Source of the DNA: a virus
IMG/VR virus record: IMGVR_UViG_3300035698_030367
Span: 1 to 41,948 of that record
Direction: 5' to 3' (one strand)
DNA length: 41,948 bases
Translations under genes and position numbers: made by a program
The notes under the pieces: model-generated
Databases searched by the model: none
What the model saw: only the letters and a program-made list of their open reading frames with translations
Told to the model about the DNA's origin: nothing
In this document: one piece after another, positions 21,815 through 40,486 of the stretch
Position numbering within the stretch: position 1 is the stretch's first letter
Layout: each line of letters begins with the position of its first letter

Positions 21815-24211
21815 ATGGCAATTAAAAAAACACAACTATATAGCATGCTGTGGGAGACAGCGAATGGACTTCGTGGTGGCATGGATGCATCTTCTTATAA
21901 AGATTATGTACTTGTGATATTGTTTGTAAAATACGTTACTGATAAATATAAGAATGATAAATATGCATCTTTTGAAGTTCCTGAAGGAGGAAATTTTTTA
22001 GATATGATTGAGGCTAAAGGGAAAAAGGATATAGGAGAAAGGATTAATATTATTATCAGTAAACTAGCAGAGGCTAATGACTTGAAAGGGGTTATCGATA
22101 GAACTGATTTTGATGATAGTGAAAAACTTGGTAAAGAAAAAGAAAAAGTTGACAGATTGACAAAGTTGGTTGCTATTTTTGAAAACCCAAATTTAGATTT
22201 TAGTAAAAATAAATCTGGTGGTGATGATATATTGGGAGATGTGTACGAGTATTTTATGAAGCATTTTGCTTCCGAGTCTGGAAAAAGTAAAGGACAGTTT
22301 TATACTCCTGCCGAAGTTTCTAGGATTATGGCTCAAATTATTGGAGTAGAAAAAGCAATAAGTGCTGATCAGACAGCTTATGATATGGCTTGTGGAAGTG
22401 GATCGTTGCTTTTGAAAGTTGATAGTGAATCACCAGTTGATATTACTCTGTATGGGCAAGAAAAAGATATTGCTGTTTCAGTGCTTGCTAAAATGAATAT
22501 GATACTTCACGGAAAACCAACAGCTGAAATTAGACAAGGGAATACTTTGACGGATCCGAAATTCAAGGAAGGAGAGAAATTAAAGACATTTGATTTTTGT
22601 GTAGCAAATCCTCCATTTGCTGATAAGGCATGGATGACTGGTCTTGATCCAGAGAATGATGAATTTCATCGTTTTGATGATGGCGTGCCCCCGGTAAAAA
22701 CTGGAGACTATGCTTTTATTTTACATTTTATAAAATCGCTTAAGCACACAGGAAAAGGTGCTATCATTTTACCTCATGGTGTTTTGTTTCGAGGAAATTC
22801 TGAATCTGACATTAGACGGAATTTAATTAAAAAGGGATATATTAAAGGAATTATTGGATTGCCAGCAAATTTGTTTTTTGGTACAGGTATTCCAGCAGTT
22901 ATTATAATAATTGATAAAGAGAATGCTATTAATCGGAAAGGTATTTTTATGGTTGATGCTAGCAAGGGATTTATTAAAGATGGAAATAAAAATAAATTAA
23001 GAGAACAGGATATTCATAAGATTGTAGATACTGCTGTTAACCAAAAAAAAGAAGATAAATATTCAAAGATGGTGTCACTTTCTGAAATTGAGAAAAATGA
23101 ATATAATTTAAATCTTCCAAGGTATATTGATATCTCAGAGGAGGAAGATATCCAGGATATTTATGCCCATTTAAATGGAGGAATACCTAATGTTGATATT
23201 GAAAAAATGAAAGAGTTTTGGGAAGAATTTCCAAGCCTTAGAAAAAATCTTTTTGATAAAAAGAACGATAACTACTCGATGATAAGGGCAGAAGACGATA
23301 AAATTACTGATATTATCTTTGAAAACAATGAATTTCAAAGTTTTAGACAAAAAGTGAAAGATGTTTTTCAAAAATGGCGAGAAGATAATGTTGAAAAATT
23401 GCAAAGTATCGACGGAGAGACAAATGCTAAAGAATTTATCAAAGAATTATCTAATAATTTATTAAACACTTTTAAACCGCTCAATCTCTTGGATGAATAT
23501 GCCGTCTACCAACATTTAATGAATTATTGGGACGAGATAATGCAGGATGATGTTTATATTATTATTGATGATGGGTGGAAAGCTAATACTTATAGAATAT
23601 TAGAGAAAAATAAAAAAGGAAAAGAAATTGATAAGGGGTGGACTTGCGATATTTTACCAAAGTCTATCGTGATAGATGAGTATTTTAAAGATGAAAAAAA
23701 AGAAATTGAGGAACTAGAAAATAAAAAAGAAGAAGCGGTCAGGCAAATGGAAGAAACACAAGAGGAAAATTCAGGAGATGAAGGGCTTTTGGAAGACTCT
23801 AAAACAGACAAAGGAACTTTAACAAAAACAAGTGTTAGTAAAAGAATTAAAGAAACAACAGACAGTGAAGAAAAAGAGCTTTTACAGAAGTATTTAAAGC
23901 TTATTGAAAGTGAGGCGGATTACAAAAAACAGATAAAAATAAAAGAAAAAGAACTTGATGACAAATTGTTGGCAAAATATCCAGAGCTTTCAGAAGGTGA
24001 AGTTAAGGATTTGGTGGTAAATAAAAAGTGGCTCAAGTATTTGAGCGAGGCGATTAATGATGAACAGGAAAAAATATCACAGAGCTTAAGTCAGAGAATT
24101 AAAGAATTGGCAAAGAGATATAAAAGTACATTGTTAGAAATTGAGGGAGGTGTTGAGGAATATGAGAGAAAAGTAAAAAGTCATTTAGAAAAAATGGGAT
24201 TTAAATCATGA
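21815..24211 (+). CDS. hsdM: type I restriction-modification methyltransferase subunit HsdM
   Basis: The protein starts with a HsdM_N helical domain (about 1-140). The N6-adenine methyltransferase core follows, with motif I ACGSGSLL (192-199) and motif IV NPPF (265-268), then FILHFIKSLKHTGKGAIILP. It methylates adenine in the target sequence read by HsdS and is part of the restriction complex. At 798 residues it is about 300 longer than classical HsdM (about 500); the extra C-terminal part (about 480 on) is charged and coiled-coil-rich. Its TGA overlaps the next start by four bases. Confidence 0.95.
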   Translation: MAIKKTQLYSMLWETANGLRGGMDASSYKDYVLVILFVKYVTDKYKNDKYASFEVPEGGNFLDMIEAKGKKDIGERINIIISKLAEANDLKGVIDRTDFDDSEKLGKEKEKVDRLTKLVAIFENPNLDFSKNKSGGDDILGDVYEYFMKHFASESGKSKGQFYTPAEVSRIMAQIIGVEKAISADQTAYDMACGSGSLLLKVDSESPVDITLYGQEKDIAVSVLAKMNMILHGKPTAEIRQGNTLTDPKFKEGEKLKTFDFCVANPPFADKAWMTGLDPENDEFHRFDDGVPPVKTGDYAFILHFIKSLKHTGKGAIILPHGVLFRGNSESDIRRNLIKKGYIKGIIGLPANLFFGTGIPAVIIIIDKENAINRKGIFMVDASKGFIKDGNKNKLREQDIHKIVDTAVNQKKEDKYSKMVSLSEIEKNEYNLNLPRYIDISEEEDIQDIYAHLNGGIPNVDIEKMKEFWEEFPSLRKNLFDKKNDNYSMIRAEDDKITDIIFENNEFQSFRQKVKDVFQKWREDNVEKLQSIDGETNAKEFIKELSNNLLNTFKPLNLLDEYAVYQHLMNYWDEIMQDDVYIIIDDGWKANTYRILEKNKKGKEIDKGWTCDILPKSIVIDEYFKDEKKEIEELENKKEEAVRQMEETQEENSGDEGLLEDSKTDKGTLTKTSVSKRIKETTDSEEKELLQKYLKLIESEADYKKQIKIKEKELDDKLLAKYPELSEGEVKDLVVNKKWLKYLSEAINDEQEKISQSLSQRIKELAKRYKSTLLEIEGGVEEYERKVKSHLEKMGFKS

Positions 24212-24792
24212 GAAGAATAAATAATAATAACAATAATTTAAATAATCATATTCAAATTATTAAAGATTGTCTAAATGAGTTGTATGAGGAAGAATTGCTT
24301 TTTGAAGGTAATCTAAGCGAGCGATGCATAGGTTTTAGATTTGCATATTTTTTACAGAATAAATTTGACGATTATTTTGTTGATTGTGATTATAATAGTT
24401 CAACTTATTTTGATGAAGAGAGTGGAGAATGGAAAAGGCGAAGTGGGAAGCCAATAGAAGATATATTAAAGGATCGTAATATTGGTGTTGCAGTTAACGA
24501 AAAGAGGACAGGAAGGTTTATTGATATTATTATTCACAAAAGAAGTTATAATAAAGATAATTGGTCAGATTTGATTTGTTTTGAATTAAAAAAATGGAAT
24601 AGTAGCAATTCAGAAGATGAAAAGGGAATACGACCTATTGAAAAAGATAGAAATAATTTAGAGAAATTAACTTTTGATTATGGTTATAGATATGGATTTC
24701 ATTTGATATTTGGAGAAAAAAAAGAAGAGACAAAAATTGAGATTTTTGAAAATGGCAGAGGCAATGGTTTAAAATTATTATTTAATAATTAA
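24208..24792 (+). CDS. PD-(D/E)xK-like nuclease-fold protein in the R-M operon
   Basis: After an Asn-rich start, the 194-residue protein has a helical part with LSERCIGFRFAYFLQ, then GRFIDIIIHKR and DLICFELKKW. The pair D106 plus E126-x-K128 matches the catalytic core of the PD-(D/E)xK fold, and a late DRNNLEKL helix fits too. I know this pattern from conserved genes in defence loci ("DIIVH-R ... E-K"), without an assigned biochemical role. It is coupled to hsdM by a four-base overlap and lies one base before hsdS. Confidence 0.7.
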   Translation: MRRINNNNNNLNNHIQIIKDCLNELYEEELLFEGNLSERCIGFRFAYFLQNKFDDYFVDCDYNSSTYFDEESGEWKRRSGKPIEDILKDRNIGVAVNEKRTGRFIDIIIHKRSYNKDNWSDLICFELKKWNSSNSEDEKGIRPIEKDRNNLEKLTFDYGYRYGFHLIFGEKKEETKIEIFENGRGNGLKLLFNN

Positions 24793-24793
24793 A

Positions 24794-26083
24794 ATGACAA
24801 CAACACAAAATAAAAAAATACCGCAAGGTTATAAAATGACAGAACTTGGAGTTATTCCCGAGGATTGGGAAATTAAAAAATTGGGTAATATCGGAATACC
24901 GTACGGGGGTTTGACTGGAAAAAAGAAAGAAGATTTTGGTGCTGGAAATGCTCAGTTTATTACTTTTTTAAATGTAATGAATAACACAAGGATTGACATA
25001 GAGAATTTTGAAAAAGTAAAAATAAAAAGTGGAGAGTGCCAGAATGAGGCAAGAAAAGGTGATATATTTTTTAATACATCCTCTGAAACACCCGAAGAAG
25101 TTGGAATGTGCGCAGTTTTACTTGACAATATTAAGGGAGTTTATTTAAACAGTTTTTGCTTTGGGTATAGATTAAAAGATATAAAAAAAATTGATGGATT
25201 ATTTTTGTCTTATTTTATAAATAGTGAATATGGAAGAGAATTATTTGCTTCTTTGGCTCAGGGTGCAACAAGATATAACATGTCAAAATCTCATTTTAAC
25301 AAGTTAGAGGTTGGGTTTCCAGGACATGAAGAGCAAAAAGCGATTGCGACAGCTCTTTCGGATACGGATAGGATGATTGGAAAATTGGATAAATTAATCG
25401 CCAAGAAAAAACTTATTAAGCAAGGTGCAATGCAGGAACTTTTGACTGGAGGGAGGAGATTGAGCAGGTTTAATGAAGAGTGGGAGGTAAAGAAATTGGG
25501 CAATATCGGAACACCATATGGTGGTTTGACTGGAAAAAAGAAAGAAGATTTTGGTGACGGAAATGCTAAGTTTATTACTTTTTTAAATGTAATGAATAAT
25601 ATAAAAATTGACATAAAGAATTTTGAAAAAGTAAAAATAAAGAATGGAGAGTGTCAGAATGAGGTAAGAAAAGGTGATCTATTTTTTAATACATCGTCTG
25701 AAACGCCTGAAGAAGTTGGAATGTGTGCAGTTTTGCTTGATGATATTAATGAGGTTTATTTAAATAGTTTTTGTTTTGGGTATAGATTAAAAGATATAAA
25801 AAAGATTGATGGATTATTTTTGTCTTATTTTATGAATAGTGAATATGGAAGAGATCTATTTGTATCTTTGGCTCAAGGTGCAACAAGGTACAACTTGTCA
25901 AAATCTCATTTTAATAAGCTAGAGATTGAGTTTCCATTATACGAAGAACAAAAAGCGATTACCAAAATTTTATCTGATATAGATAGTGAGATTGAAAAGT
26001 TGGAAAAGAAAAAAGAAAAATATCAGATGATAAAAGAGGGGGCGATGCAGGTTTTGTTAACTGGGAAGATTAGGTTGGTTTAA
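24794..26083 (+). CDS. hsdS: type I specificity subunit HsdS with duplicated recognition domains
   Basis: The 429-residue protein has the usual plan: TRD1 (27-176), central conserved helix region (177-231, EEQKAIATALSDTD), TRD2 (232-381) and C-terminal conserved region (EEQKAITKILSDID on). Counting by eye, TRD1 and TRD2 differ at only 19 of 150 positions, about 87% identical. Since each TRD reads one half of a bipartite target in opposite orientation, this subunit should recognise an interrupted palindrome or near-palindrome. It sits between the PD-(D/E)xK and DUF4238 genes, with gaps of one and seven bases. Confidence 0.95.
   Translation: MTTTQNKKIPQGYKMTELGVIPEDWEIKKLGNIGIPYGGLTGKKKEDFGAGNAQFITFLNVMNNTRIDIENFEKVKIKSGECQNEARKGDIFFNTSSETPEEVGMCAVLLDNIKGVYLNSFCFGYRLKDIKKIDGLFLSYFINSEYGRELFASLAQGATRYNMSKSHFNKLEVGFPGHEEQKAIATALSDTDRMIGKLDKLIAKKKLIKQGAMQELLTGGRRLSRFNEEWEVKKLGNIGTPYGGLTGKKKEDFGDGNAKFITFLNVMNNIKIDIKNFEKVKIKNGECQNEVRKGDLFFNTSSETPEEVGMCAVLLDDINEVYLNSFCFGYRLKDIKKIDGLFLSYFMNSEYGRDLFVSLAQGATRYNLSKSHFNKLEIEFPLYEEQKAITKILSDIDSEIEKLEKKKEKYQMIKEGAMQVLLTGKIRLV
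24872..25321 (+). repeat. direct repeat, copy 1 (HsdS TRD1)
   Basis: This 450-base segment encodes HsdS residues 27-176 and is repeated at 25487-25936. Copies are very similar at the DNA level, with mainly single-base changes. Such long direct repeats can recombine, so domain loss or exchange is possible. Confidence 0.9.
25487..25936 (+). repeat. direct repeat, copy 2 (HsdS TRD2)
   Basis: Second copy of the HsdS recognition domain (residues 232-381), pairing with 24872-25321. Changes are scattered and mostly conservative in protein, which suggests duplication followed by mild divergence rather than two separately acquired domains. Confidence 0.9.
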
Positions 26084-26090: not shown

Positions 26091-27029
26091 ATGTTATCAC
26101 AACAAATTACAAAAAATCAACATATTATTCCACAAAGGCATTTAAAGCAATTCGCTATTACCGGAGAAAAAAAATTAGAGTGCTTGAATGTGGATTTAAT
26201 GAGAATAGAAAAACAACAATCACCCAAATCGATTTGTAGTGGATATTTTCATTATGCAATGAGTCCAGGCGAGGAGGATGAATATAGCCAGGTAGTTGAA
26301 AAGTCTTTTAAAAATATTGAAGATTGGTATGGTGAAAATATAGAGAGAATTGAGAAGTTATTACTTTCAAAACAAAAATTATCAGACAATGATAAATATG
26401 GTCTTTCTTGGATAATAGCAAATTTTTACTTTCGTGGTTATAGCTTCAGAAAAGAAACAACAAGGGCATTAGAAAAGATTACAAAATCAATGACTCCTAC
26501 TATTTCAGAGAATATTTTTAATGGTTGCAAAAAAGAATATCCCAGTATATTTTCAGGCAATAAAAAAGAAAAAGAAGTTGCTCAAAAGGTAGTAGAGCAA
26601 GAAATGAAGACTTATACTTCTAACACGGCTTATGCAACCAATAGAGCTTTTGATGAGGGCTTTGCAAATACTTTAACACATAAGAAATGGAGAGTATTGA
26701 TTAACAATTCAAAGGATTATCCATTTATTACAGGGGATGAAGCTGTAATTACGCTTAGTAACGAAAAAATCCCAAAAAGTTTTATTTCAAATAGTTTTCT
26801 TTGTTTAACGCACATTTTTCATTTATCACCAAGAATTGCTATTATTGCTACTTATCCTTTTAATGAAGAAATGCATGGACAGGTTATTTTCGAAGATGTA
26901 GTTAATAATCCTAAAAAGATATTAGAACAAAATTTTCATTATGCGAATTATACAAATAAATATTGCTATGCACCAAATAAAATCTTTTTTGAAACATTAG
27001 TACTAGCTAAAAATAATAATATATTATAA
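26091..27029 (+). CDS. DUF4238 protein in R-M operon
   Basis: The 312-residue protein begins with a KNQHIIPQRHLKQFAITG segment, the N-terminal signature (H-P-x-L-F) of DUF4238, and has KWRVLINNSKDYPFITGDEAV later, also typical of that family. Function is unknown; the family appears in R-M and other defence loci. It lies between hsdS (7 bases) and hsdR (8 bases), so it is co-transcribed and possibly an accessory restriction or toxin component. The start context is TATG, as for other genes here. Confidence 0.8.
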   Translation: MLSQQITKNQHIIPQRHLKQFAITGEKKLECLNVDLMRIEKQQSPKSICSGYFHYAMSPGEEDEYSQVVEKSFKNIEDWYGENIERIEKLLLSKQKLSDNDKYGLSWIIANFYFRGYSFRKETTRALEKITKSMTPTISENIFNGCKKEYPSIFSGNKKEKEVAQKVVEQEMKTYTSNTAYATNRAFDEGFANTLTHKKWRVLINNSKDYPFITGDEAVITLSNEKIPKSFISNSFLCLTHIFHLSPRIAIIATYPFNEEMHGQVIFEDVVNNPKKILEQNFHYANYTNKYCYAPNKIFFETLVLAKNNNIL

Positions 27030-27037: not shown

Positions 27038-30000
27038 ATGCCAAATAAAAATCCAAAAATAGGACAGATTGAGAGAAAAACACAAGACAGGGTTGTGCAG
27101 TTTTTTCAAGATGTTTTAAAATATGATTATTTAGGAAATTGGGAGCATGATAGGGATAATAGTAATATAGAAGAAGAATATCTTAAAAAGTTTTTAAAAG
27201 AGAAGCAAGGCTACTCCGATGATGTTATCAAAAAGGCTATTTTTGAAATTGAAAAAGTGGCTACTAATCAGCAAAAGACTTTATATTATATCAATAAGGA
27301 CATCTATGGAATAATTCGTTACGGAGTAGATATTAAAGAAAACCCAACCAAGCCATCAGAACATATTCATTTTATAGACTGGGAAAATCCAGAGAATAAT
27401 CATTTCGCTATTGCCGAGGAAGTGACTATAAGGGGCAGGCACACAAAGAGACCAGATATCGTTTTATATATAAATGGTATTGCCTTGGGAGTAATAGAGC
27501 TTAAGAGAAGTAAAATTTCTATTAGCGAGGGTATTAGGCAAAATCTTGATAATCAAAAAAAAGAATTTATTGAGCAATTTTTTGTCACTCAGCAACTTGT
27601 TATGGCAGGAAACGACACACAGGGATTGAGCTATGGAACAATAGAGACTCCTGAAAAATATTATTTAAACTGGAAAGAGGAAAATAAAGACTTTGATCAT
27701 AATAAGAAAACTAGTATATCTAGAACATTAGCGCAAGGTGATTGTGACAAGAGTAAAAATATTTTAGATTGCGATATCTATAGATTATTGAATAAGGAGA
27801 GATTTTTGGAATTGATTCATGATTTTGTTATCTTTGATTTTGGAACAAAAAAAATATGTAGGCATAATCAGTATTTTGCGATTAAAGAAACACAAAAAAT
27901 ACTCAAACAAAGAGAGGGCGGTATCGTTTGGCATACTCAAGGAAGCGGGAAGTCATTAACTATGGTTTGGATCGCAAAATGGATTAGAGAAAATATTAAC
28001 GATAGCAGAATTTTGATAATTACAGATAGAACAGAACTAGATGATCAAATCCGAGGAACATTATCAAATACTGGGATTGTAAAAGATAAGAAAGAACCCA
28101 AGGTCACATCTGCACGGAATCTTATGGAAGAATTGAATAAGAAAGATAAAAATGTTTTATGTTCTTTAGTGCATAAATTCGGCAGAGATCAATCTGGCAA
28201 GGATCAGAATTATAATGAATATATTGCCGAAATCAAAAAAAGTTTGCCAAGTAACTTTGAAGCAAAAGGGGATATCTATGTTTTTGTTGATGAGTGTCAC
28301 AGAACTCAGTCAGGTAAGCTTCACAAGGCGATGAAGGAAATTTTGCCAAATGCAGTATTCTTAGGTTTTACAGGAACGCCGTTGCTCAAAAAGGACAAGG
28401 CAACAACCATGGAAACATTTGGTAAATATATTCATACATATAAATTTGATGAGGCTATTGATGATGAAGTAGTTTTGGATCTTCGGTATGAGGCGAGAAA
28501 AATTGATCAAAAAATTTCAGCACAAGATAAAATTGATATTTGGTTTAAATCAAAGACAAAAGGACTTTCTGATTTGGCGATATTTGAGCTTAAGAAAAAA
28601 TGGGGGACCATGCAAAAAGTTCTTAGTTCTAAATCGAGGTTAGAAAAAATTGTTGCCGACATATTATTTGATTTTGAGACTAAGCCAAGGCTAGACGAAG
28701 GTAGAGGCAACGCCATGCTTGTGGCAGGTAGTATATATGAAGCATGTAAATATTATGAGTTATTTGTTGATGCAGGATTTAGTAAATGTGCAATAATAAC
28801 TTCGTATATTCCTGATATAGCAAGCATAAAGGGTGAAAGTGATGGAGAAGATCAGCGTTCTGAAAATATCAAAAAATACGAAGTTTATAAAAAAATGATT
28901 GCAGATTTTTTTAATATAGAAGAGGGTGATATTCGAGATAAGCATATCGAAGATTTTGAGAAAGATGTGAAAAAGAAATTTGTGAAGGAGCCCGGACAAA
29001 TGAAGTTATTAATTGTTGTTGATAAGCTTCTTACTGGATTTGATGCTCCATCTGCATCATATTTGTATATTGATAAAAGCATGCAGGATCATGGTTTGTT
29101 TCAGGCTGTGTGTAGAGTTAATAGGTTGGATGACAAAGACAGGGGGGATGAGCTAGATAAGGATTATGGCTATATTATTGATTATAAGGACTTGTTTAAA
29201 AGTGTGGAACAAGCAATTGATAATTATACAAGTGGAGCATTTGATGATTTTGACAAGGATGACGTTTCTGGTCTTTTAAAAAATCGGCTAGAAGAGGGTA
29301 AGAAAAAACTTGATGAAATTCTTGAGCAAATTAAGGCATTAGTTGAAGGAGTTGAGGCTCCTAAAAGCATCAATGAATATAAGGATTATTTTTTAGGAGA
29401 TGATATAAAATCAAAAGAACAGTTAAGGCTGGAGTTCTATAAAAAAGTGGCATCACTTATTAGAGCCTATACAAACATTGCAAACGAAATGCAGGAATCT
29501 GGATATGACACTAAGCAGGAAATAGAGATTAAAAAGGATGTTACTTATTTTTCAGATTTAAGAGATGAACTTAAATTAATGAGCGGTGATTATTTGGATT
29601 TAAAAAGATTTAATCCAGCAATGAGACACTTGATCGATTCATATATTCAAGCAGAGGATAGTGAAAAAATTTCAGCATTTGAAGACACGTCTTTGCTTGA
29701 GATTATTGTTAAACAAGGGATTGAAACTGCAATTGAAAAATTACCAAAAGCAATAGGAAAAGAAAAAAATGCGATTGCTGAAACTATAGAAAATAATATC
29801 AGAAAATTAATTACAGATGAGAGGGCTGTAAATCCTAAGTATTTTGAAAAAATGTCAATTATATTAGATGAGTTAGTTAAGAAGAGAACAGAAGAAATGA
29901 TAGATTATGAAGAATATTTAAGACAAATCACAAGGCTTGTTGAGAAAGTTATGAAAAAGGAGGATTTAGATAGTAAATATCCACATTTGATAAAGGGAAG

Positions 30001-30229
30001 TGAAGCTAGAAAAGCTTTGTATGATAATTTAGATAATAATGGCGATTTAGCTGTTAAATTAGATGAAATAGTCAGGAAGACAAAAAAAGATAATTGGAGA
30101 AGTAGTAAACCAAAACAAAGAGAGGTAAGAAATGTTATTATGAAACTTTTTGATGATAATGAGGTTTCTTATAATGACGAGTATTTAGATAATATTTTTA
30201 ATATTGTAATGGAACAAAATGAGTACTAA
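27038..30229 (+). CDS. hsdR: type I restriction subunit HsdR
   Basis: The N-terminal PD-(D/E)xK nuclease has D140 (RPDIVLY), E154 and K156 (VIELKRSK). The SF2 translocase has Walker A TQGSGKS (300-306), motif II DECH (418-421) and motif III FTGTP, followed by helicase and C-terminal helical regions that bind the methyltransferase. The 1063-residue length is normal. It translocates unmodified DNA and cuts at a distance. Its end overlaps the next gene by 11 bases. Confidence 0.97.
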   Translation: MPNKNPKIGQIERKTQDRVVQFFQDVLKYDYLGNWEHDRDNSNIEEEYLKKFLKEKQGYSDDVIKKAIFEIEKVATNQQKTLYYINKDIYGIIRYGVDIKENPTKPSEHIHFIDWENPENNHFAIAEEVTIRGRHTKRPDIVLYINGIALGVIELKRSKISISEGIRQNLDNQKKEFIEQFFVTQQLVMAGNDTQGLSYGTIETPEKYYLNWKEENKDFDHNKKTSISRTLAQGDCDKSKNILDCDIYRLLNKERFLELIHDFVIFDFGTKKICRHNQYFAIKETQKILKQREGGIVWHTQGSGKSLTMVWIAKWIRENINDSRILIITDRTELDDQIRGTLSNTGIVKDKKEPKVTSARNLMEELNKKDKNVLCSLVHKFGRDQSGKDQNYNEYIAEIKKSLPSNFEAKGDIYVFVDECHRTQSGKLHKAMKEILPNAVFLGFTGTPLLKKDKATTMETFGKYIHTYKFDEAIDDEVVLDLRYEARKIDQKISAQDKIDIWFKSKTKGLSDLAIFELKKKWGTMQKVLSSKSRLEKIVADILFDFETKPRLDEGRGNAMLVAGSIYEACKYYELFVDAGFSKCAIITSYIPDIASIKGESDGEDQRSENIKKYEVYKKMIADFFNIEEGDIRDKHIEDFEKDVKKKFVKEPGQMKLLIVVDKLLTGFDAPSASYLYIDKSMQDHGLFQAVCRVNRLDDKDRGDELDKDYGYIIDYKDLFKSVEQAIDNYTSGAFDDFDKDDVSGLLKNRLEEGKKKLDEILEQIKALVEGVEAPKSINEYKDYFLGDDIKSKEQLRLEFYKKVASLIRAYTNIANEMQESGYDTKQEIEIKKDVTYFSDLRDELKLMSGDYLDLKRFNPAMRHLIDSYIQAEDSEKISAFEDTSLLEIIVKQGIETAIEKLPKAIGKEKNAIAETIENNIRKLITDERAVNPKYFEKMSIILDELVKKRTEEMIDYEEYLRQITRLVEKVMKKEDLDSKYPHLIKGSEARKALYDNLDNNGDLAVKLDEIVRKTKKDNWRSSKPKQREVRNVIMKLFDDNEVSYNDEYLDNIFNIVMEQNEY

Positions 30230-30959
30230 TAATATTATACAATCAGAGATGAAAGTTAACAATATAGATGTTTTGGTTTTAAAGAAAAATATTAAAAATT
30301 TTCATCTTAATGTATTGCCACCAGACGGTAGAGTTAGAGTCTCTGTGCCCAAAAAGACCAACGATGAAGCAATTAATCTTTTTGTAGTTACTAGGTTGCC
30401 ATGGATCAGGAGACAAATTAAAGGTTTCAAGAATCAATCGAGGCAAACACTAAGACAATATATAACAGGAGAGAGTCATTATTATAAAGGGGATAGATAT
30501 ATATTAAATTTAGTTGAAGATGGCTCAAAACCAAGAGTGGAAATTAGAAATAAAAAATATATTGATTTGTTTGTTAGTAAAAATGCTTCAAGAGAACAAA
30601 AAGAAGACGTATTTTTAAAATGGTTTAAACTTGAATTGAAAAAAGAAGTTGAGAAATTGGTAAAAAGGTGGAAAGAAAAAACAGGAGTACAATTAAGTGG
30701 ATGGAGTATTAGACAAATGAAGACAAAGTGGGGGGCATGTAATATTAAAAAAAGGCAAATTTGGGTAAATTCTGAGTTAATAAAAAAACCAGTTAATTGT
30801 TTGGAGTATATTATAGTTCATGAATTAGTGCACTTGATAGAGAGAACACATAGCGAAAAGTTTATTAGCCTTATGAACAAATATCTTCCACAGTGGAGAT
30901 CTCGAAAAGATGAATTAAATGAGTTAATATTATCTTATGATGAATGGGGTAAAGAATAA
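30219..30959 (+). CDS. YgjP-type (DUF45) zinc metallopeptidase
   Basis: The 246-residue protein has the active-site helix HELVH (201-205) with a third ligand candidate H211 (ERTHSEKF), and the family's WGACNIKKRQIWVN segment just before. DUF45 peptidases often accompany type I hsdR genes, as seen here, but no substrate is known to me. No signal peptide, so it is cytoplasmic. It overlaps hsdR by 11 bases and the next gene by 23. Confidence 0.88.
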   Translation: MSTNNIIQSEMKVNNIDVLVLKKNIKNFHLNVLPPDGRVRVSVPKKTNDEAINLFVVTRLPWIRRQIKGFKNQSRQTLRQYITGESHYYKGDRYILNLVEDGSKPRVEIRNKKYIDLFVSKNASREQKEDVFLKWFKLELKKEVEKLVKRWKEKTGVQLSGWSIRQMKTKWGACNIKKRQIWVNSELIKKPVNCLEYIIVHELVHLIERTHSEKFISLMNKYLPQWRSRKDELNELILSYDEWGKE

Positions 30960-31575
30960 TAAAAAAATAAATAACAGTAAACCAGAAAAACATTATGATT
31001 GGATCGTTCAGCCTGATTGTTTTTTTGCTTTGGCATTATTGGGTTGCGATTCTATGCTTGATTCAGAAAGTATAAATGGTGAATTAATTGGTAATTCAGT
31101 TTTTAAAAAATTGGGGTTAAGCTCATCACATCCAAACTATGAATTAATTTATTCAGTTGTTTATAATTTTAAACACGGAGTAGAATTACATATTAAAGGT
31201 TTAGGAAATATGGATCATGGAGAGTATGTAAACAAGCATGACTTAAAAAGTCTTTTTGAATTTGCGGAAAATTCTGCTGGTAAAAATATGCAAATTATAA
31301 AAAAGCTATATGGCAAGGCTTGGGGAGTGTTAGATAAATATTATTATGGAACTTATATTACGTCTAATACCTCGCAAAAACATCCAGATATTAAAAATGA
31401 AGCTGAAAGATATCCAGAAAATAACAATGCTTATCAATTATATGAGCCATACAAATGGGTTAATGTTGATATTGTAAGAAAACTAAAAAGCGATATCAAA
31501 AATACTGAAAAATATTTTTTTGATGCTATGTGCGATATTGAGCCAGCTAAAACATATAAATACAACTACAATTAA
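30937..31575 (+). CDS. hypothetical protein, possibly HEPN-like, 212 aa
   Basis: This protein overlaps the peptidase gene by 23 bases. It has a helical middle, YNFKHGVELHIKGL then KHDLKSLFEF, which recalls the helical pair of HEPN domains (E-L-x-L-K-G-L ... H-D-L-x-x-L). The usual R-x(4-6)-H ribonuclease motif is not clear, so this is a weak hint only. The C-terminus is rich in Lys and Tyr. The operon placement points to an R-M accessory role. Confidence 0.5.
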   Translation: MMNGVKNNKKINNSKPEKHYDWIVQPDCFFALALLGCDSMLDSESINGELIGNSVFKKLGLSSSHPNYELIYSVVYNFKHGVELHIKGLGNMDHGEYVNKHDLKSLFEFAENSAGKNMQIIKKLYGKAWGVLDKYYYGTYITSNTSQKHPDIKNEAERYPENNNAYQLYEPYKWVNVDIVRKLKSDIKNTEKYFFDAMCDIEPAKTYKYNYN

Positions 31576-31584
31576 AGCAATTTT

Positions 31585-31607
31585 ATATTATTAATAATAA
31601 TATTTTT
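31585..31607 (+). terminator. weak AT-only hairpin terminator after the R-M operon
   Basis: ATATTATT (31585-31592) pairs with AATAATAT (31596-31603) around AAT, followed by TTTT. The stem has no G-C pairs, so stability is low, but it is the only break in a long operon and an AAGGA follows before the next gene's start. Confidence 0.35.
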
Positions 31608-31627
31608 AGGATATTATTAAGGAAAAT

Positions 31628-32470
31628 ATGACAGAATCAAAGACATTAAAACTTTTTTTATTAGATGGCGAGGCAACTGGAACCAAGGTGGTTGATATTA
31701 TCGGCTGGACTGGAAAAACCTATGTAATTCCAAGAGCAAAATTAAAAAAGATTCTTCAAAGGGATGAATTAGGATCTCAAGCGGTATATTTTTTAGTGGG
31801 AGAAACAGAGGATGGAGAGAGCAGTGTTTATATCGGAGAGGCAGAAGATTTTAGAAAAAGAATACAGCAACATAATCAAAATAAGGATTTTTGGAATTTA
31901 GTGATTTGTTTTATATCAAAGGATGATAATTTAACCAAGGCTCACGTGAAGTACCTGGAAGCTGTTTTAATAGAAGAGGCAACAAAAGCAAGGCGTGTAA
32001 AAATAGAAAATGGTAATTCTGGAGGAGCTCCTAGATTATCAGAATCCGATGAGGCAGATATGAATTCGTTTTTATTGAATTTACGAATTGTTTTGTCGTC
32101 TTTAGGTTTTAGATTTTTAGAGGATCTTACTGACATCAAAGAGGAAGCAGAAGAAATTTTCTATATATCACAACGAGGAACTAAGGCGGTGGTTAAGTTG
32201 ATAAATGAGGGCTATGTTTTGCAACCTGGTTCTACGATTGCAAGAACTGAAACAAATGGTGCAACAGATATGGTGGTAAATATAAGGAAAAAGTTTTTAA
32301 CTGAAGAAAATGTTAAAATTAAAGATAGTGAACTTTTTGAATTACTAGTACCTTTAAAATTTACAAGCCCTTCTACTGTCGCTCTTTTTGTAATAGGACA
32401 CAATGTTAATGGATGGAATAAATTAAAAGATAAAAATGGAAAAACATTAAACGAGTTAAAAAGAATGTAA
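31628..32470 (+). CDS. GIY-YIG nuclease-like protein with DUF4357 C-terminus
   Basis: Residues about 51-115 form a GIY-YIG domain: VYFL (53-56), SVYIGEAEDFRKRIQQH with YIG (68-70) and R76, and E111 in KYLEAVLIEEA. The C-terminal region (about 225-280, LKFTSPSTVALFVIGHNVNG) matches DUF4357. Such proteins are frequent near type I R-M loci; a DNA cleavage role is likely by domain but not shown. An AAGGA eight bases upstream is one of the clearest ribosome sites in the window. Confidence 0.88.
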   Translation: MTESKTLKLFLLDGEATGTKVVDIIGWTGKTYVIPRAKLKKILQRDELGSQAVYFLVGETEDGESSVYIGEAEDFRKRIQQHNQNKDFWNLVICFISKDDNLTKAHVKYLEAVLIEEATKARRVKIENGNSGGAPRLSESDEADMNSFLLNLRIVLSSLGFRFLEDLTDIKEEAEEIFYISQRGTKAVVKLINEGYVLQPGSTIARTETNGATDMVVNIRKKFLTEENVKIKDSELFELLVPLKFTSPSTVALFVIGHNVNGWNKLKDKNGKTLNELKRM

Positions 32471-32485
32471 AAAATAAATAGTCCT

Positions 32486-33970
32486 ATGCATATAACAAAA
32501 ACAGATTATCTTGAATATACATTCTGCAAAAAAAATCTTTGGCTTAAAAAACACAAGCCAAAGCTCTTTGAGGATGTTGAATTGTCTGATTTTGAAAAGA
32601 AGATTATTGAAGAGGGTAATTTGGCAGATGAAGAAGCAAGGCATTTATTTCCAGGTGGTGTTTTGGTAGATAGTTATGGTGAGGACGCAATTAATGATAC
32701 AAAAAAGTATTTAGAAAAACAGCAAGAAGTTATATTTCAGGCTACTTTTTTTGAAGATGTATATTTTATTCGGGCAGATATTTTTGTTTATAATAATGAT
32801 AAAGGTGGTTACGAGCTTTATGAGGTGAAAGCTTCGAATGATGTTAAGCGAAAAGAACCGCATCACTATATTAATGATCTTGCTTTCCAAAAGAGTGTTA
32901 TCGAGATGAGTGGGTTGAAGATTATTAAAGTGGGAGTGATTCATTTAAATCGTGAATATAAAAGAGATGGAGAGGTGGACTATAATCAATTATTTACAAT
33001 TGTTGATCTTACTGATGAAGTTTTAGAATCCCAAGATGGTGTAAAAAAGCAAATGTTGGAAATTAAAGAATATCTAGACATGCCAGAAGAAAAAGGTTGT
33101 GAATGCTTGTATCGTGGAAGAAATGCTCATTGCACTACTTTTGCTTATTCCAACCCTGATGTCTCTGAATATTCAGTGCATGATATTAATCGCATAGGTT
33201 CTAGTAAGAAAATATTTATTGATTGGATAGATAGGGGAATTTACGATATTAAGGACATAGATAATCCAGAGGTTCTCACAGGGGCTAAAAAAGCTCAATA
33301 CGACGCCTATATGTTGGGCAAGGCTATAATTAACCCAGTTGCTATAAAGGAAACTTTAGATGAGTTAGTGTATCCTCTTTATTTTTTCGATTATGAGGGG
33401 TTTATCAGTGCTATTCCAATGTTTGACGGCTTTGGAGCTTATGAACAAGTACCTTTTCAGTATTCACTCCATATCATGCAAGAGGATGGGAGTATTGAGC
33501 ATAGGGAGTTTTTAATAACCGATCCTAAGGGGGATATAACTCGTCCTTTAGTTAAAAGAATGAAAGAAGACATCAATCCAAAAGGGACAGTTATTGCGTG
33601 GTATAGTTCATATGAAAAACAACGCAACACTAAGCTAGCAGAGTTGCACCCAGATTATGCTTATTTTTTAGAAGAGATAAATGAGAAAATGTTTGACTTG
33701 ATGACAATTTTTTCAAAAAACTATTATGTAGATCCAGCATTCAAGGGAAGTTCTAGTATTAAAAAAGTTTTACCAGTGATAGTCCCAGAGCTAACATACA
33801 AAAATCTTCATATATCAAAAGGGGACCAAGCGAGTGAACGTTGGGAACGAATGATATCAATTGACACACCGAAAGAAGAAAAGGAACAAATCAAAAACGA
33901 TTTGCTTGAGTATTGTAAATTGGATACTTGGGCAATGGTTAAGATTTATGAGTTTTTGAAGGGGAGATAG
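32486..33970 (+). CDS. RecB-like nuclease fused to DnaQ-like exonuclease (DUF2779)
   Basis: The N-terminal half is a Cas4/RecB-like nuclease: D98 (FIRADIF), E113 and K115 (LYEVKAS) make the PD-(D/E)xK core. C14 with C205, C207 and C216 could hold a 4Fe-4S cluster as in Cas4. The C-terminal half (DUF2779) carries D302/E304 (FFDYEGF) and D480 (EYCKLDTWAM), the acidic residues of a DEDD 3'-5' exonuclease. Two nuclease types in one chain suggest processing of invading or damaged DNA. It is 15 bases after the GIY-YIG gene. Confidence 0.85.
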   Translation: MHITKTDYLEYTFCKKNLWLKKHKPKLFEDVELSDFEKKIIEEGNLADEEARHLFPGGVLVDSYGEDAINDTKKYLEKQQEVIFQATFFEDVYFIRADIFVYNNDKGGYELYEVKASNDVKRKEPHHYINDLAFQKSVIEMSGLKIIKVGVIHLNREYKRDGEVDYNQLFTIVDLTDEVLESQDGVKKQMLEIKEYLDMPEEKGCECLYRGRNAHCTTFAYSNPDVSEYSVHDINRIGSSKKIFIDWIDRGIYDIKDIDNPEVLTGAKKAQYDAYMLGKAIINPVAIKETLDELVYPLYFFDYEGFISAIPMFDGFGAYEQVPFQYSLHIMQEDGSIEHREFLITDPKGDITRPLVKRMKEDINPKGTVIAWYSSYEKQRNTKLAELHPDYAYFLEEINEKMFDLMTIFSKNYYVDPAFKGSSSIKKVLPVIVPELTYKNLHISKGDQASERWERMISIDTPKEEKEQIKNDLLEYCKLDTWAMVKIYEFLKGR

Positions 33971-34055
33971 TTTATGGGATGAAATTAATCTTTATTAAAA
34001 AAAACAGCTTGATTAGAATATAATTTTTATCTGAGTTTATATTTTTGTTAAATTC

Positions 34056-34064
34056 TGGTATAAT
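34056..34064 (+). promoter_or_regulatory. extended -10 promoter for the IetAS-like pair
   Basis: TG at 34056-34057, one base, then perfect TATAAT (34059-34064) makes an extended -10 element, which does not need a good -35. It places transcription start near 34071, about 22 bases before ietA. The preceding 120 bases contain no gene, so the pair has its own promoter, separate from the R-M operon. Confidence 0.65.
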
Positions 34065-34092
34065 AAAGTAAAATAAATTAATATATATTTAT

Positions 34093-35094
34093 ATGACAAC
34101 TTCGGAAATAATAAAAAAGTTATTTCAATATTATAATAGCAAAGACGATGATTCTTTTGTTCAAACTGCAAGAGAATATATTTCACGTGAAAAGAGAAAA
34201 AAACACAATGTGGTTGTAAAAGAACTAGAAAAAGCGCTGTATAGTGAAGGATTCACTTCTCCAAATAAACGTGTAAAAGATTATCTACCAATTCCTAGAG
34301 ATACGGAAAATGGATTTCCATTGCTTGAGATCCAGAATTTTGATTATAGTTTAGATGGAATTGTCTTGCCAGATAAAACTAAATATCAACTTAAACAAAT
34401 AACAAAAGAATTTAAAGATGCTGACATTTTGGCAACTTACAACCTGGAGCATAAAAAAAAGGTTCTATTATGTGGTGCCCCAGGAACAGGAAAAACTTTT
34501 TCTGCACAAATAGTTAGTTCTATTTTGAATATACCATTGGTTTATATTCGTTTTGATGCAATAATTTCATCTTATCTAGGAGAAACAGCAACAAATTTGC
34601 GTAAAGTGTTTGATTATATTGAAAATGGTACATGGATAGTTCTTTTTGATGAAGTTGATATTATTGGAAAGAACAGAGATGATGATCATGATCACGGAGA
34701 GATAAAAAGAGTAGTTAATAATTTTTTACAAATGCTTGATAATATCAAAGGTGAAAGCATTATTTTTGCTGCGACTAATCATCAACATATGCTTGATTCG
34801 GCTATATGGAGGCGTTTTGATGAAGTGGTGTATTATGAATTACCAAATCAGAAGAACAGAGAGGTGTTGTTTAACCTTTTTATAAAGGCTATAAAAAGAA
34901 TGCCTAATATTGATACTGCGAAAATTGCAAAAAAGACTTCTGGATTTTCTCCATCTGATATTAAAATGGTTATTGAAAATGCAATAAAAGTAACTATATT
35001 GGATTCAAGAAATAAATTATCAATGAAGGATATAAACGAAGCAATAAATAATTTTATTCGCAGAGAAAAAGTTAAAAATAATAAAATTAGATAA
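34093..35094 (+). CDS. ietA: AAA-family ATPase of an IetAS-like defence pair
   Basis: After an N-terminal helical region (1-110), the AAA core shows Walker A GAPGTGKT (128-135), Walker B VLFDEVD (183-189), sensor 1 AATN (226-229) and arginine finger WRRFD (239-243). The next gene starts on the last base of its stop (TAATG), so both are translated together. This exact pair, a small AAA ATPase and an S8 protease, was reported as a plasmid-stability pair and later as the anti-phage system IetAS. Length 333. Confidence 0.85.
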   Translation: MTTSEIIKKLFQYYNSKDDDSFVQTAREYISREKRKKHNVVVKELEKALYSEGFTSPNKRVKDYLPIPRDTENGFPLLEIQNFDYSLDGIVLPDKTKYQLKQITKEFKDADILATYNLEHKKKVLLCGAPGTGKTFSAQIVSSILNIPLVYIRFDAIISSYLGETATNLRKVFDYIENGTWIVLFDEVDIIGKNRDDDHDHGEIKRVVNNFLQMLDNIKGESIIFAATNHQHMLDSAIWRRFDEVVYYELPNQKNREVLFNLFIKAIKRMPNIDTAKIAKKTSGFSPSDIKMVIENAIKVTILDSRNKLSMKDINEAINNFIRREKVKNNKIR

Positions 35095-37748
35095 TGGAAA
35101 AATATCCTCATTTGAAACTCCCTGTTTTTCAGGGCAATATTGAAAGGAAGAAGCCATCAAATTTTGGTGGTGGTTTTTTATTTCCGCCTGATCGAATAAA
35201 GGAAAAATATACGAAAGAAGTTGTGGAAAATGTTAATAGTCTTGAAGCTTCTTTTTCTGATTTGAAAAAGAAATTTTCAGGAAAAATAGATCCCACTTTA
35301 ATTTATGAGATAGAAATTAATCAAAGTGTTTCTTCTGATAATTTTGCTAAAAATTTATTAGGTATGGGGATTCACGTATTGTCGAGATATGAGGATGGAA
35401 AAAGACTGTGGGTTGTTTTTAGTGATGGCGAAAATTTTGATGATTTTAAAAATAAAATTACAAGATATTCAACACCTATCGGAAAACAAGTTTTAGAAAA
35501 TGCATTTATAGATAAAGATTTAAATATAAATATAGATGAGTCAATAAAAATAAGAGAATTTTATAAAAAAGAAGGGTTACTTAATTCTGATTATTTTTTA
35601 GTAAAAGAAAAGGCAAAAATACATGGTAAAATTGATAATGTAAAAATTAACTTTTTAAAACAAGACATAAATTACAAAAAGAGTATAGTATTAAAATTAA
35701 AAAAATATCATGATGGAAATTATGATATGTTTAATGCCATAGAATCATTGAAAGATATACCCATTGAACAAAAAATTGGAAAGAAATTATTAGATACACC
35801 TCTGCATAGTTCTCCTGAATTTATAGATTTAGAGTTGTGGAAGATAGAGGACTATCCTCAGAAGAATATCGATTTTATTAAGCAGTTAAAAGAAGCTTAT
35901 AATAATCAATCAGTATTTCAAATAACTGATGAATTAATAACGAAGTCTTTTGTGTTGTTGAGGATAAAACTAACACAAAGAATCTTTGATGAAATAATTC
36001 AATTTAAGGAGGTTTCAAGAGCGGATAGACCCTCCATTATTGAGTTTAGTCCAAGTGAGTATAGTGCTCCAGATATATCAAACATTGATATTGGTGAACC
36101 ATTGGAAAATGCAACAGGTATTTTGATTATAGACTCTGGGATTATTTCTAATCACCCGATGCTTGAAAAAAATATTGGAGGTGAAGAAAATTTTCAGAGT
36201 GGAGAAGGGAGTGTTCATGATAGTGTTGGGCATGGCACAGCTGTGGCTGGATGTGCTGTTTATGGTGATGTTGAAAAGTGTTTAGAAGAGAAAACATTTT
36301 CTCCTTCAAATTGGTTGTTTTCTGCAAAATTGATGTATGCTGAAAAAAATGAAATAACCAAGGAGGTTATGGCAAGATATGATGAGGAGAAACTTGTTGA
36401 GCATCAGTTTGGTGATGCAATTGAAAGTTTTATTTCGAATCCGGATTATCATATTAAGGTGGTAAATGTTTCGCTTGGGAATAGTAATGAAGTTTGGCAA
36501 AAGGATTATTATAGACAACTACCCTTTGCTTCTCTTATCGATGAACTAGCTTACAGGTTTCCTGATATTGTATTTATTGTTTCTTCGGGCAATAAAAATC
36601 CTTTTGACGTTTTCAGTTCAATTAATGAAATTATTGATAATTATCCAGAATATTTAATTAGTGATGAGTATAAAATCGTTAATCCTGCCACTTCTGCATT
36701 AGCAATTTCAGTTGGATCGATAGCTGGAAAAAACCGTATCATGGGTGAACGTCATGGATCAGAAGAAATAAAGACTTCTATTGCTGATGAGCATCAACCA
36801 TCACCGTTTACGAGAACAGGAAGCGGTATTAATGGCATGGTTAAGCCTGACCTAGTTGAATATGGAGGCAATTTGATTTTATCTGAAATTCACGGTCATA
36901 TAAGAGAAGATATTGGTGGTAAAATCGCTGTATTAAATAATAGCATCGTTGATAATATTATAAAGTTTGAATCTGGAAGTAGTTTTTCAGCATCAAAAGT
37001 TTCTCACCTTACGGGAAAGCTGGCTAATAAATATCCTCAAAAGTCGTCTAATTTTATAAAAAATCTTTTATTATTGGGAGCGGATTATCCATTCAGTCCT
37101 AAGAATAATTTTTATGGAGACTTTTCTGCAGATAAATCTAGCCAAGTTCATTTATCTGTGTGTGGATATGGTTTGAGTAGTTATGATAGAGCAATTAATT
37201 CTTTTGATAATAGAACGGTGTTGTGGGATGAGGGGAAAATTGCGCTTGATCAAATAAAGGTTTACTCTTTAAAATTGCCAGAAGTTTTTTTCTCAGAGAA
37301 AGGGAAGAAGAAGATTGTAGTAACTTTAACCTTTAATCCTGAAACACGGTCTACTCGTGGAGATAGCTATATTGGGAATAAGATGGAATTTCATTTATTC
37401 CACTCAATAAATCCAGAAGTATTAATAGAAAAATATGGTGTTATATCTGAAGAGATAGAACATGCGGGTGTTCCTGAAGATATAGCAGACTATGAAATAA
37501 AGTTGACTCCTGGTGTTAATATTAGAAAATCAGGATGTCATCAAAAGGCATGGAAAGAGTACAAGAGGGAGCCACAAAAGACCCCTTCAACTCCTATTTC
37601 TTTGGTTTTGCTAAATTATAATAAGTGGATAGCAGACGAAAAAAGATTGCAAGATTATTGTGTGTCGGTTACATTTGAGCATGAAAAAGAGATTGATTTG
37701 TATAATAATATAAGAGCAAATATTAGAACAAGAACCAGAATTAGATAG
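35094..37748 (+). CDS. ietS: S8 subtilisin-like protease of an IetAS-like defence pair
   Basis: The 884-residue protein has a long N-terminal region of unknown fold (1-335), then a peptidase S8 domain with D347 (ILIIDSGI), H380 (GHGTAVAG) and S630 (GSSFSAS, in place of the usual GTSxAxP); IVFIVSSGN provides the oxyanion Asn. There is no signal peptide, so it is cytosolic, in keeping with defence use. A beta-rich C-terminal domain follows (about 700-884). It is translationally coupled to the AAA ATPase gene, which may gate its activity. Confidence 0.88.
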   Translation: MEKYPHLKLPVFQGNIERKKPSNFGGGFLFPPDRIKEKYTKEVVENVNSLEASFSDLKKKFSGKIDPTLIYEIEINQSVSSDNFAKNLLGMGIHVLSRYEDGKRLWVVFSDGENFDDFKNKITRYSTPIGKQVLENAFIDKDLNINIDESIKIREFYKKEGLLNSDYFLVKEKAKIHGKIDNVKINFLKQDINYKKSIVLKLKKYHDGNYDMFNAIESLKDIPIEQKIGKKLLDTPLHSSPEFIDLELWKIEDYPQKNIDFIKQLKEAYNNQSVFQITDELITKSFVLLRIKLTQRIFDEIIQFKEVSRADRPSIIEFSPSEYSAPDISNIDIGEPLENATGILIIDSGIISNHPMLEKNIGGEENFQSGEGSVHDSVGHGTAVAGCAVYGDVEKCLEEKTFSPSNWLFSAKLMYAEKNEITKEVMARYDEEKLVEHQFGDAIESFISNPDYHIKVVNVSLGNSNEVWQKDYYRQLPFASLIDELAYRFPDIVFIVSSGNKNPFDVFSSINEIIDNYPEYLISDEYKIVNPATSALAISVGSIAGKNRIMGERHGSEEIKTSIADEHQPSPFTRTGSGINGMVKPDLVEYGGNLILSEIHGHIREDIGGKIAVLNNSIVDNIIKFESGSSFSASKVSHLTGKLANKYPQKSSNFIKNLLLLGADYPFSPKNNFYGDFSADKSSQVHLSVCGYGLSSYDRAINSFDNRTVLWDEGKIALDQIKVYSLKLPEVFFSEKGKKKIVVTLTFNPETRSTRGDSYIGNKMEFHLFHSINPEVLIEKYGVISEEIEHAGVPEDIADYEIKLTPGVNIRKSGCHQKAWKEYKREPQKTPSTPISLVLLNYNKWIADEKRLQDYCVSVTFEHEKEIDLYNNIRANIRTRTRIR

Positions 37749-38029: not shown

Positions 38030-40138
38030 ATGTTCTTTCGTAAAAAACGTAAACGAAAAAAACAATTTTCATTATGGCTTGGTTTTAGTTTGGGCAGAGA
38101 AGCTCAACAAGGAATTTGGGTTATAATTTTATTGCTGGGAGTTTTTGCAACTGGTCTTAGTTTGTTTGGTCAAGCTGGGGAGATCGGTTTTTATATTAAT
38201 GCTATCCTTGTTTATTTATTTGGTAATGCTAAATGGTCATTGCCAGTGTTGCTTGGGTTTACGGCGATTAGTTTAGTTCATGATAAAGAGAAAGGTTTTG
38301 ACAGTGCCAATATAATTGGGCTGTTTTTATTTTTGGCAAGTATTTCATCATTGTTGTATTTTTATTCTTTTATAATTGGTGGTGGTGTAGTTGGACAACA
38401 AATTGTAGAATTTGTTTTACCATATGTTGGACCATGGATTGCAGCTGCGATTTTTTCAAGTGGTTTGTTGGTGTCCTTGCTTTTGCTACTTGATACAAGC
38501 ATAGAAAGATTAATAGGAAAAGAAAGTATTATTTTTCGTATTATTGTTTTTGTGTTTAGTATTGTTTTTAGACCGTTTATAAGAAAAGATTTTGATGATG
38601 AATATGAGGAAGAAGAAGACGAGGAGGATGAAGATAAAGAGGAAGATGAGGAAGAAGAGGAGAGCAGTAATGGTAAGACGGTGGTCAAAGAATATAAAAT
38701 TGAAGAAGAGGATGATGGCGATAAAAAACAAGAGGATTTTTCTTGGGCAAAAAGTAATGTTAAAATGGATATTCCTTTGAGTTTGCTAAAGAATAAACCA
38801 AAGAAGCCTAATAGTGGTAATATTGATCGTAATCAAGATGTTATAAAAAAAACTCTTTTAGATTTTGGAGTTCCTGTGAATATGGGAGAAGTGCGAGTTG
38901 GTCCTACTGTAACTCAATATACTTTTAAGCCGTCTAAAGGAATATCGGTATCTCGTGTTAAAGCCTTGTCTGATGATTTGGCACTTAATTTGGCAGTTCA
39001 CCCAGTGAGGATTGAAGCACCAATTCCCGGTAAGTCATTGGTGGGGTTGGAAGTCCCTAATCAAACTAAGGTGATAGTATCACTTAAAGAAATATTACAG
39101 TCAAAGAAATTCAAAAGTCGCAAAAGCAATATGATGGTATCATTAGGGCGAGATGTTTCAGGTCAGGTTTGGTTGGATGATTTGGCAAAGATGCCCCATC
39201 TTTTAATTGCAGGATCTACTGGGAGTGGGAAAAGTATAGGGATTCATTCTCTGATTACAACTTTACTTTATCAAAATAATCCAGATGATCTTAAAATGAT
39301 TTTGATTGATGTGAAACAGGTCGAACTTACTGTTTATGATAAATTGCCATATTTAGTAGCTCCAGTTATCACAGACAATAAACGTGCAATTAGATCTTTG
39401 CAATGGTGTTTGGGAGAGATGGAAAGAAGGCTTGAAAAATTAAAAGAGGCAGGCTGTCAGAATATCGCAGATTATAATAAAAAGAAAAAAGAGCGTATGC
39501 CATATTTGGTAGTAGTGGTAGATGAATTGGGAGACCTTATGTCTACAGCCAAGAAAGAAGTGGAAGGACCCATTATTCGTCTTGGACAAAAGTCACGTGC
39601 AGCTGGGATTCATATGATTCTAGCAACGCAAAGACCAAGTGTCGATATTTTGTCAGGTCTCATTAAGGCAAACATGCCAGCTCGTATGGCATTCTCTGTT
39701 ACGTCTTCAGTGAATTCAAAAACCATTCTTGATTTTACTGGAGCAGAAAAATTGTTAGGGCAGGGTGATATGTTGTATATTAATTCTACCTCACCGAGTC
39801 CAATGAGAATACAAGGAGCTTATGTTGATAAGAGTGAAGTGAAAGCAGTGGTTAATTTTATTAAAAAGAAAGCAGGAAAAGGAGAATATATTAAAGAGAT
39901 AACAGAGAAAGTGCAAGGTGGTTTTAATTTGGATTCTAGTGATGAAGATGAGGATGATTTACTGCAGGAATCTAAGGAATTAATTTTAAATAGTGGTAAG
40001 GCTTCAGCTACAATGCTTCAGAGTCAATTAGCTATTGGTTACCCAAGAGCTAATCGGATTTTGACTATTTTGGAAAAGCAGGGGATAGTTGGTCCTTCGG
40101 TGCAGAATAAACCAAGAGAGGTTTATGCTAGTAAATAA
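38030..40138 (+). CDS. ftsK: DNA translocase FtsK
   Basis: Residues 1-185 contain four membrane segments (for example GIWVIILLLGVFATGLSLFG). A very acidic linker (188-235) follows, then the alpha/beta motor with Walker A AGSTGSGKS (394-402) and Walker B VVVDEL (496-501). The C-terminal winged-helix gamma domain (about 640-702) reads DNA polarity. It pumps chromosomal DNA through the division septum and activates Xer recombination. A complete membrane-anchored FtsK is a chromosomal, not phage, gene. The start is ATG 38030. Confidence 0.95.
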   Translation: MFFRKKRKRKKQFSLWLGFSLGREAQQGIWVIILLLGVFATGLSLFGQAGEIGFYINAILVYLFGNAKWSLPVLLGFTAISLVHDKEKGFDSANIIGLFLFLASISSLLYFYSFIIGGGVVGQQIVEFVLPYVGPWIAAAIFSSGLLVSLLLLLDTSIERLIGKESIIFRIIVFVFSIVFRPFIRKDFDDEYEEEEDEEDEDKEEDEEEEESSNGKTVVKEYKIEEEDDGDKKQEDFSWAKSNVKMDIPLSLLKNKPKKPNSGNIDRNQDVIKKTLLDFGVPVNMGEVRVGPTVTQYTFKPSKGISVSRVKALSDDLALNLAVHPVRIEAPIPGKSLVGLEVPNQTKVIVSLKEILQSKKFKSRKSNMMVSLGRDVSGQVWLDDLAKMPHLLIAGSTGSGKSIGIHSLITTLLYQNNPDDLKMILIDVKQVELTVYDKLPYLVAPVITDNKRAIRSLQWCLGEMERRLEKLKEAGCQNIADYNKKKKERMPYLVVVVDELGDLMSTAKKEVEGPIIRLGQKSRAAGIHMILATQRPSVDILSGLIKANMPARMAFSVTSSVNSKTILDFTGAEKLLGQGDMLYINSTSPSPMRIQGAYVDKSEVKAVVNFIKKKAGKGEYIKEITEKVQGGFNLDSSDEDEDDLLQESKELILNSGKASATMLQSQLAIGYPRANRILTILEKQGIVGPSVQNKPREVYASK

Positions 40139-40180
40139 TCTTTATAAAAACTTTATAATTTCTTGAGCTTTTCTTCATAC

Positions 40181-40208
40181 ACGATCATGTATACTTATGG
40201 TCGTTTTT
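40181..40208 (+). terminator. rho-independent terminator after ftsK
   Basis: ACGATCA (40181-40187) pairs with TGGTCGT (40198-40204), allowing one wobble, with a long T-run behind (40204-40211). It ends ftsK about 43 bases after the stop. Confidence 0.75.
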
Positions 40209-40254
40209 TTTGTGCTAATTTTACGAGAAAGGTAGTGCAAAATTGAGTAAATTG

Positions 40255-40263
40255 TGTTATATT
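40255..40263 (+). promoter_or_regulatory. putative extended -10 promoter
   Basis: TG (40255-40256), one base, then TATATT (40258-40263) forms an extended -10 element; a weak GTGCAA lies 17 bases upstream. Transcription would start near 40270, where the first hairpin begins (40269). Confidence 0.45.
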
Positions 40264-40268
40264 TTCAT

Positions 40269-40340
40269 GTTGCTGTATATCCACAGTAACAATTTGACTT
40301 ATCACTGGATTACGTTAACATCCCCCGTGATAAGTTTTTT
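40269..40340 (+). ncRNA. candidate small RNA with terminator hairpin
   Basis: Two hairpins follow the predicted start: GTTGCTGT/ACAGTAAC (40269-40276 with 40283-40290), then ACTTATCAC/GTGATAAGT (40297-40305 with 40327-40335), perfect over nine pairs with a 21-base loop and a TTTTTT tail. A transcript of about 70 nt would end there. The loop holds GTTAAC and a CCCCC run exposed for pairing. It matches no RNA family I know. Confidence 0.4.
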
Positions 40341-40350
40341 AATTAAACAA

Positions 40351-40374: not shown

Positions 40375-40379
40375 CCTAG

Positions 40380-40412: not shown

Positions 40413-40440
40413 TTAATGTAATTCTAGCATGGGCAAGTCT

Positions 40441-40463: not shown

Positions 40464-40486
40464 TTCTTGTCTAGCTAACAAATGCG

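Follow-up and report, generated by a model that had tools for sequence, protein, structure and literature searches.

What does a Type I specificity subunit read if its two recognition domains (TRDs) are nearly the same, and how did it come to carry one TRD twice? We analyzed the virus record IMGVR_UViG_3300035698_030367 over its whole length of 41,948 nucleotides (here referred to as the window). The presence of a phage-borne HsdS with two nearly identical DNA-reading domains was confirmed as a real and rare observation. Taken together, it is quite likely that this HsdS is the subunit of a complete Type I R-M system, that both TRDs read the same half-site of a palindromic target and that the protein arose by movement of the TRD alone.

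The Type I operon and its phage setting

Terminase, portal, head protease, capsid, tail and amidase genes were found between 2.6 and 20.7 kb of the window. The phage module starts with a fusion of a ParB domain and a DNA methyltransferase (766-2016). The phage genes are followed by the Type I operon, an IetAS-like pair, other defence-type genes, FtsK and an integrase. Located past the operon (30937-37748) are the gene of a 212-aa protein, which matches HEPN below the threshold, a PDC-S14 (GIY-YIG/DUF4357) gene, a DUF2779 gene weakly similar to Cas4 and an IetA-like AAA ATPase together with a subtilase (IetS-like). FtsK (4TM, alpha and gamma domains) and the tyrosine integrase at the record end (38030-41641) may be of phage or host origin. 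Neither a tRNA gene nor an end repeat of more than 10 bases was found in the window.

As in other Type I systems hsdM, hsdS and hsdR are located together (Table 1). HsdM contains the SAM-binding motif I (ACGSG) at residue 192 and NPPF at residue 265. HsdR combines the features of a nuclease and of an SF2 motor, namely a PD-(D/E)xK motif present as PD..ELK (PDIVLYINGIALGVIELK), the Walker A motif GSGKS and DECH. The motifs of both subunits are intact; the R-M system is complete and presumably active. Identities to the corresponding proteins of L002, L003 and L004 ranged from 54 to 56% for HsdM and from 54 to 57% for HsdR, the compared relatives being Kuenenbacteria, Zixiibacteriota and Methylococcales MAGs. 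A YgjP-like gene adjoins hsdR also in these three loci and in L007.

The gaps between hsdM and hsdS and between hsdS and hsdR hold differing extra genes. In the window these encode a 194-aa protein and a DUF4238 protein, respectively; in related operons a Fic protein (L004:6776-7885), a GmrSD-type nuclease (L003:9199-11193) and an ATP-binding protein (L012) were found. These gaps apparently serve as cargo slots of the operon. The 194-aa protein showed a weak PADLOC match to PD-Lambda-3_A (E 3e-10) and carries a D...FELKK stretch which by eye resembles a PD-(D/E)xK nuclease motif.

Searches of viral contigs with HsdS, with TRD1 alone and with the TRD DNA pattern returned no homologous HsdS, and the GenBank phage collection contained one weak partial match only. 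The phage relatives identified via the portal protein (L044-L055), mostly short records, had no Methylase_S match over their whole length.

Table 1. Genes of the Type I operon and regions of HsdS, in window coordinates
Feature	Position	Strand	Remarks
hsdM, 798 aa, N6 adenine methyltransferase	21815..24211	+	N6_Mtase E 5.7e-101, HsdM_N
194-aa protein, no Pfam family, between hsdM and hsdS	24208..24792	+	
hsdS, 429-aa Type I specificity subunit, two near-identical TRDs	24794..26083	+	
TRD1, residues 27-176	24872..25321	+	Shares 131 of 150 residues with TRD2
Central conserved region, coiled-coil helix, residues 179-224	25328..25465	+	
TRD2, residues 232-381	25487..25936	+	
Distal conserved region, coiled-coil helix, residues 384-429	25943..26080	+	
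DUF4238 protein between hsdS and hsdR	26091..27029	+	PF14022, E 2.2e-27
hsdR, 1063 aa, restriction/translocase subunit	27038..30229	+	HSDR_N, SWI2_SNF2, T1R_D3-like
YgjP-like metallopeptidase gene, operon end	30219..30959	+	

Two near-identical TRDs in one subunit

The hsdS ORF consists of 429 codons without any internal stop. Two Methylase_S matches were detected by Pfam, and the best solved-structure match was 1yf2 (E 3.7e-32). The same structure was the best PDB match of the AF2 model (pLDDT 81), in which helices span residues 178-217 and 383-421; the fold also matches PacII S and EcoKI S. According to Pfam, the model and the fold match, HsdS has the two TRDs and separating coiled-coil helices of a Type I subunit.

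The offset between the TRDs is 205 aa (615 nt) throughout, and they differ at 19 of 150 residues (87% identity). Both this count and the domain boundaries had been given in an earlier note on this DNA and proved to be exact on alignment. In the self-comparison of HsdS the offset yielded 163 identities over 224 positions, compared to 7-22 for other offsets. On the DNA level the TRDs are 89.6% identical (47 differences in 450 bp). The changes, distributed 9/9/29 over the codon positions, fall mostly on the third, and the longest exact run common to both repeats is 34 bp. An independent repeat search recovered the repeat as well (24860-25159 and 25475-25774, 88%).

In a local alignment the two halves of HsdS were 80% identical over 201 aa, whereas the highest half-to-half identity among 119 other distinct HsdS-like ORFs (330-620 aa) was 52%. 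These ORFs originated from Patescibacteria, three phyla via G003/G004/G007, plasmids and other loci, and since the sample is biased to strong Methylase_S matches the resulting 1 in 120 is a rough frequency only. In the nearest relatives TRD1 and TRD2 share 20-29% identity. The homology over the whole TRD length in the window is far above this range, as in a symmetric S subunit of the BstXI type.

The predicted target

In a folded S subunit, TRDs arranged in tandem are oriented opposite to each other. Two TRDs of one family which each read the same half-site would therefore have an interrupted palindrome as target. The M2S1 methyltransferase would then methylate both strands of a sequence made up of half-site, spacer and reverse-complement half-site, and DNA without the methyl mark would be cut by HsdR. 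The picture of how a Type I enzyme works stays as before.

Several observations point to a common half-site. The substitutions between TRD1 and TRD2 indicate purifying selection, with a dN/dS of 0.13 (bootstrap 0.07-0.23) at a dS of 0.41, although this ratio is no proof of selection for symmetry within hsdS, since the TRDs may have diverged earlier in separate genes. With the same substitutions placed randomly 32 amino acid changes (range 23-41) would be expected instead of the 19 found. Compared with 24 related TRDs, the differences fall in family-variable columns (mean entropy 2.19 versus 1.49, p 0.0011); neither domain has a change in any of the 14 family-invariant columns. The conserved blocks GGLTGK, SSETPEEVGM, YLNSFCFG and LAQGATRYN are the same in TRD1 and TRD2. 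Furthermore, members of the TRD family were found at either position (1 or 2) of HsdS proteins and also in an intact, naturally occurring half-length S. Based on the variable-column differences, the kept invariants and the dN/dS, one half-site and hence an interrupted palindrome is most likely. A TRD relative with known motif was not identified.

The half-length S just mentioned (220 aa; L059:1348-2010, minus strand) is encoded in a Patescibacteria genome, with an AAA ATPase gene on one side and an hsdR-like gene on the other, and carries ELEAELEAELE repeats.

The TRDs may instead have drifted to slightly different half-sites, leaving a near-palindromic target, for example with one degenerate base on one side. 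Among the 19 differences are several changes of charge (A50D, Q54K, E70K, G115E and G174E). In H. pylori few amino acid differences inside TRD groups lead to the recognition of CTA or CCA in one group and of RTAY or VTAY in another (PMC3983042), and therefore one base could differ between the half-sites of the window as well. We regard such a drift as unlikely, since the differences are concentrated at family-variable positions, the conserved blocks are shared and selection between the TRDs is purifying. The interrupted palindrome, already proposed in the earlier note, is still the best reading in the light of family conservation, dN/dS and precedents; the motif itself is a prediction.

Precedents for such a subunit exist. 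M.BstXI consists of 2M and an S with two similar TRDs and reads CCA N6 TGG (PMC3874165). By its description it resembles the window in having a full-length two-TRD S whose TRDs evidently read the same half-site; however, BstXI is classed with the Type II modification enzymes, whereas the window has a Type I hsdR. In H. pylori the TRD2+TRD3 form of JHP1422/JHP1423 (M.Hpy99XV) combines identical TRDs in one chain and methylates AAG N5 CTT, and its authors state that palindromes resulting from identical-TRD S subunits are "commonly accepted" (PMC3936762). In its natural form the JHP1422 gene encodes three TRDs, with an additional asymmetric site, in contrast to the two TRDs found here. An engineered BsaXI S with the order TRD1-CR1-TRD1-CR2 reads AC N5 GT (PMC9159934). 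It likewise has one TRD at both positions and keeps the original two helices, but it is artificial, Type IIB and partially active, whereas the HsdS of the window is natural and part of a Type I operon. A further example is the Type IIG S allele HPV225_1544 of H. pylori, which has the same TRD in TRD1 and TRD2 due to domain movement (DoMo; PMC3077401). The symmetric HsdS had been called unusual, which holds for its frequency in our sample. In view of M.BstXI, JHP1422 TRD2+TRD3, HPV225_1544 and BsaXI 2xTRD1 it is nevertheless a further natural case of an already known type and less novel than implied.

Palindromic targets are also known for half-length S subunits (NgoAV, EcoR124I(delta50), EcoDXXI truncations, JHP0785 and M.AhdI), and the half-S proteins of EcoR124I, EcoDXXI, NgoAV and JHP0785 dimerise (PMC3874165, PMC3936762). 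Here, two separate chains supply the copies of one TRD which in the window are joined in a single chain with a predicted palindromic target. Recombination between the TRD repeats would delete 615 bp in frame and result in a 224-aa half-S, which should dimerise and read a palindrome of the same half-sites. If two TRDs have the same specificity, an exchange between them would have no effect. The repeat is therefore a poor candidate for phase variation or a specificity switch. Domain deletion or swapping by way of the long repeat had been suggested in the earlier note. Among the few searchable relatives no half-length variant of the window hsdS was found. The symmetric state might be selectively maintained on the phage instead of being transient, with the deletion yielding an equivalent half-S so that specificity would survive recombination; we consider this quite improbable.

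Origin of the duplicated TRD

The helices and the TRDs of HsdS have different histories. In the helix tree six relatives contributed one clade of central and one of distal helices, and each of the two helices of the window was placed in the clade of its own position (support 100/98). In the TRD tree, by contrast, TRD1 and TRD2 of the window were sisters (99/93). Correspondingly, the helices of the two halves share 59% identity compared to 87% in the TRDs. Due to this incongruence it appears that the TRD alone was copied into an older HsdS whose halves were already distinct.

The TRD moved more likely from position 2 into position 1 than the other way round. This is suggested by the branch lengths in the TRD tree (0.02 for TRD2, 0.14 for TRD1), by the polarised sites decided by the two nearest relatives (8 agree with TRD2 and 4 with TRD1) and by the closest TRD relatives L109 (68%), L010 (65%) and L078 (48%), in which the TRD is located in position 2.

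The same TRD at both positions together with retained position-specific conserved regions, as indicated by the incongruent trees, corresponds to DoMo, the movement of TRDs within or between S genes by which HPV225_1544 resembles the window. In H. pylori the TRDs are bordered by repeat sequences and numerous alleles have been described, whereas the window provides one allele and no dedicated repeat flanking the TRDs as a recombination site was identified in its hsdS. Both TRDs have a common WE-KKLGNIG start and EEQKAI end; similar motifs are present in many HsdS.

Alternatively, a half-S gene (TRD and helix) could have been duplicated in tandem, replaying the proposed origin of two-TRD HsdS. 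The halves are indeed collinear at the fixed offset, and L059 encodes a naturally half-length S whose TRD is of this family. However, the helices of the window belong to separate clades, in a large majority of comparisons they are closer to the same-position helices of relatives than to each other, and they are identical to each other at roughly 65% of nucleotides, compared to about 90% for the TRDs. Duplication of a whole half is therefore very improbable, and it was rejected on the helix tree. An assembly or binning artefact joining two TRD variants of a mixed population into one gene is hardly credible: even though the sequence is a viral contig from a metagenome and the search of viral contigs yielded no second copy of the gene, the ORF is intact, the repeat spacing is exact, each half keeps its own position-specific helix, and with repeats differing at about 10% of bases and sharing no exact run above 34 bp a collapse was judged unlikely.

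Movement of the TRD alone thus remains the preferred origin. The HsdS of the window would then illustrate clearly, in a natural gene, how such a movement makes a Type I specificity subunit symmetric, and the trace of the event is preserved in its helices. As the half-site should be common to both TRDs, a single methylome would suffice to assign it to a TRD family that is widespread on plasmids and present in Patescibacteria.
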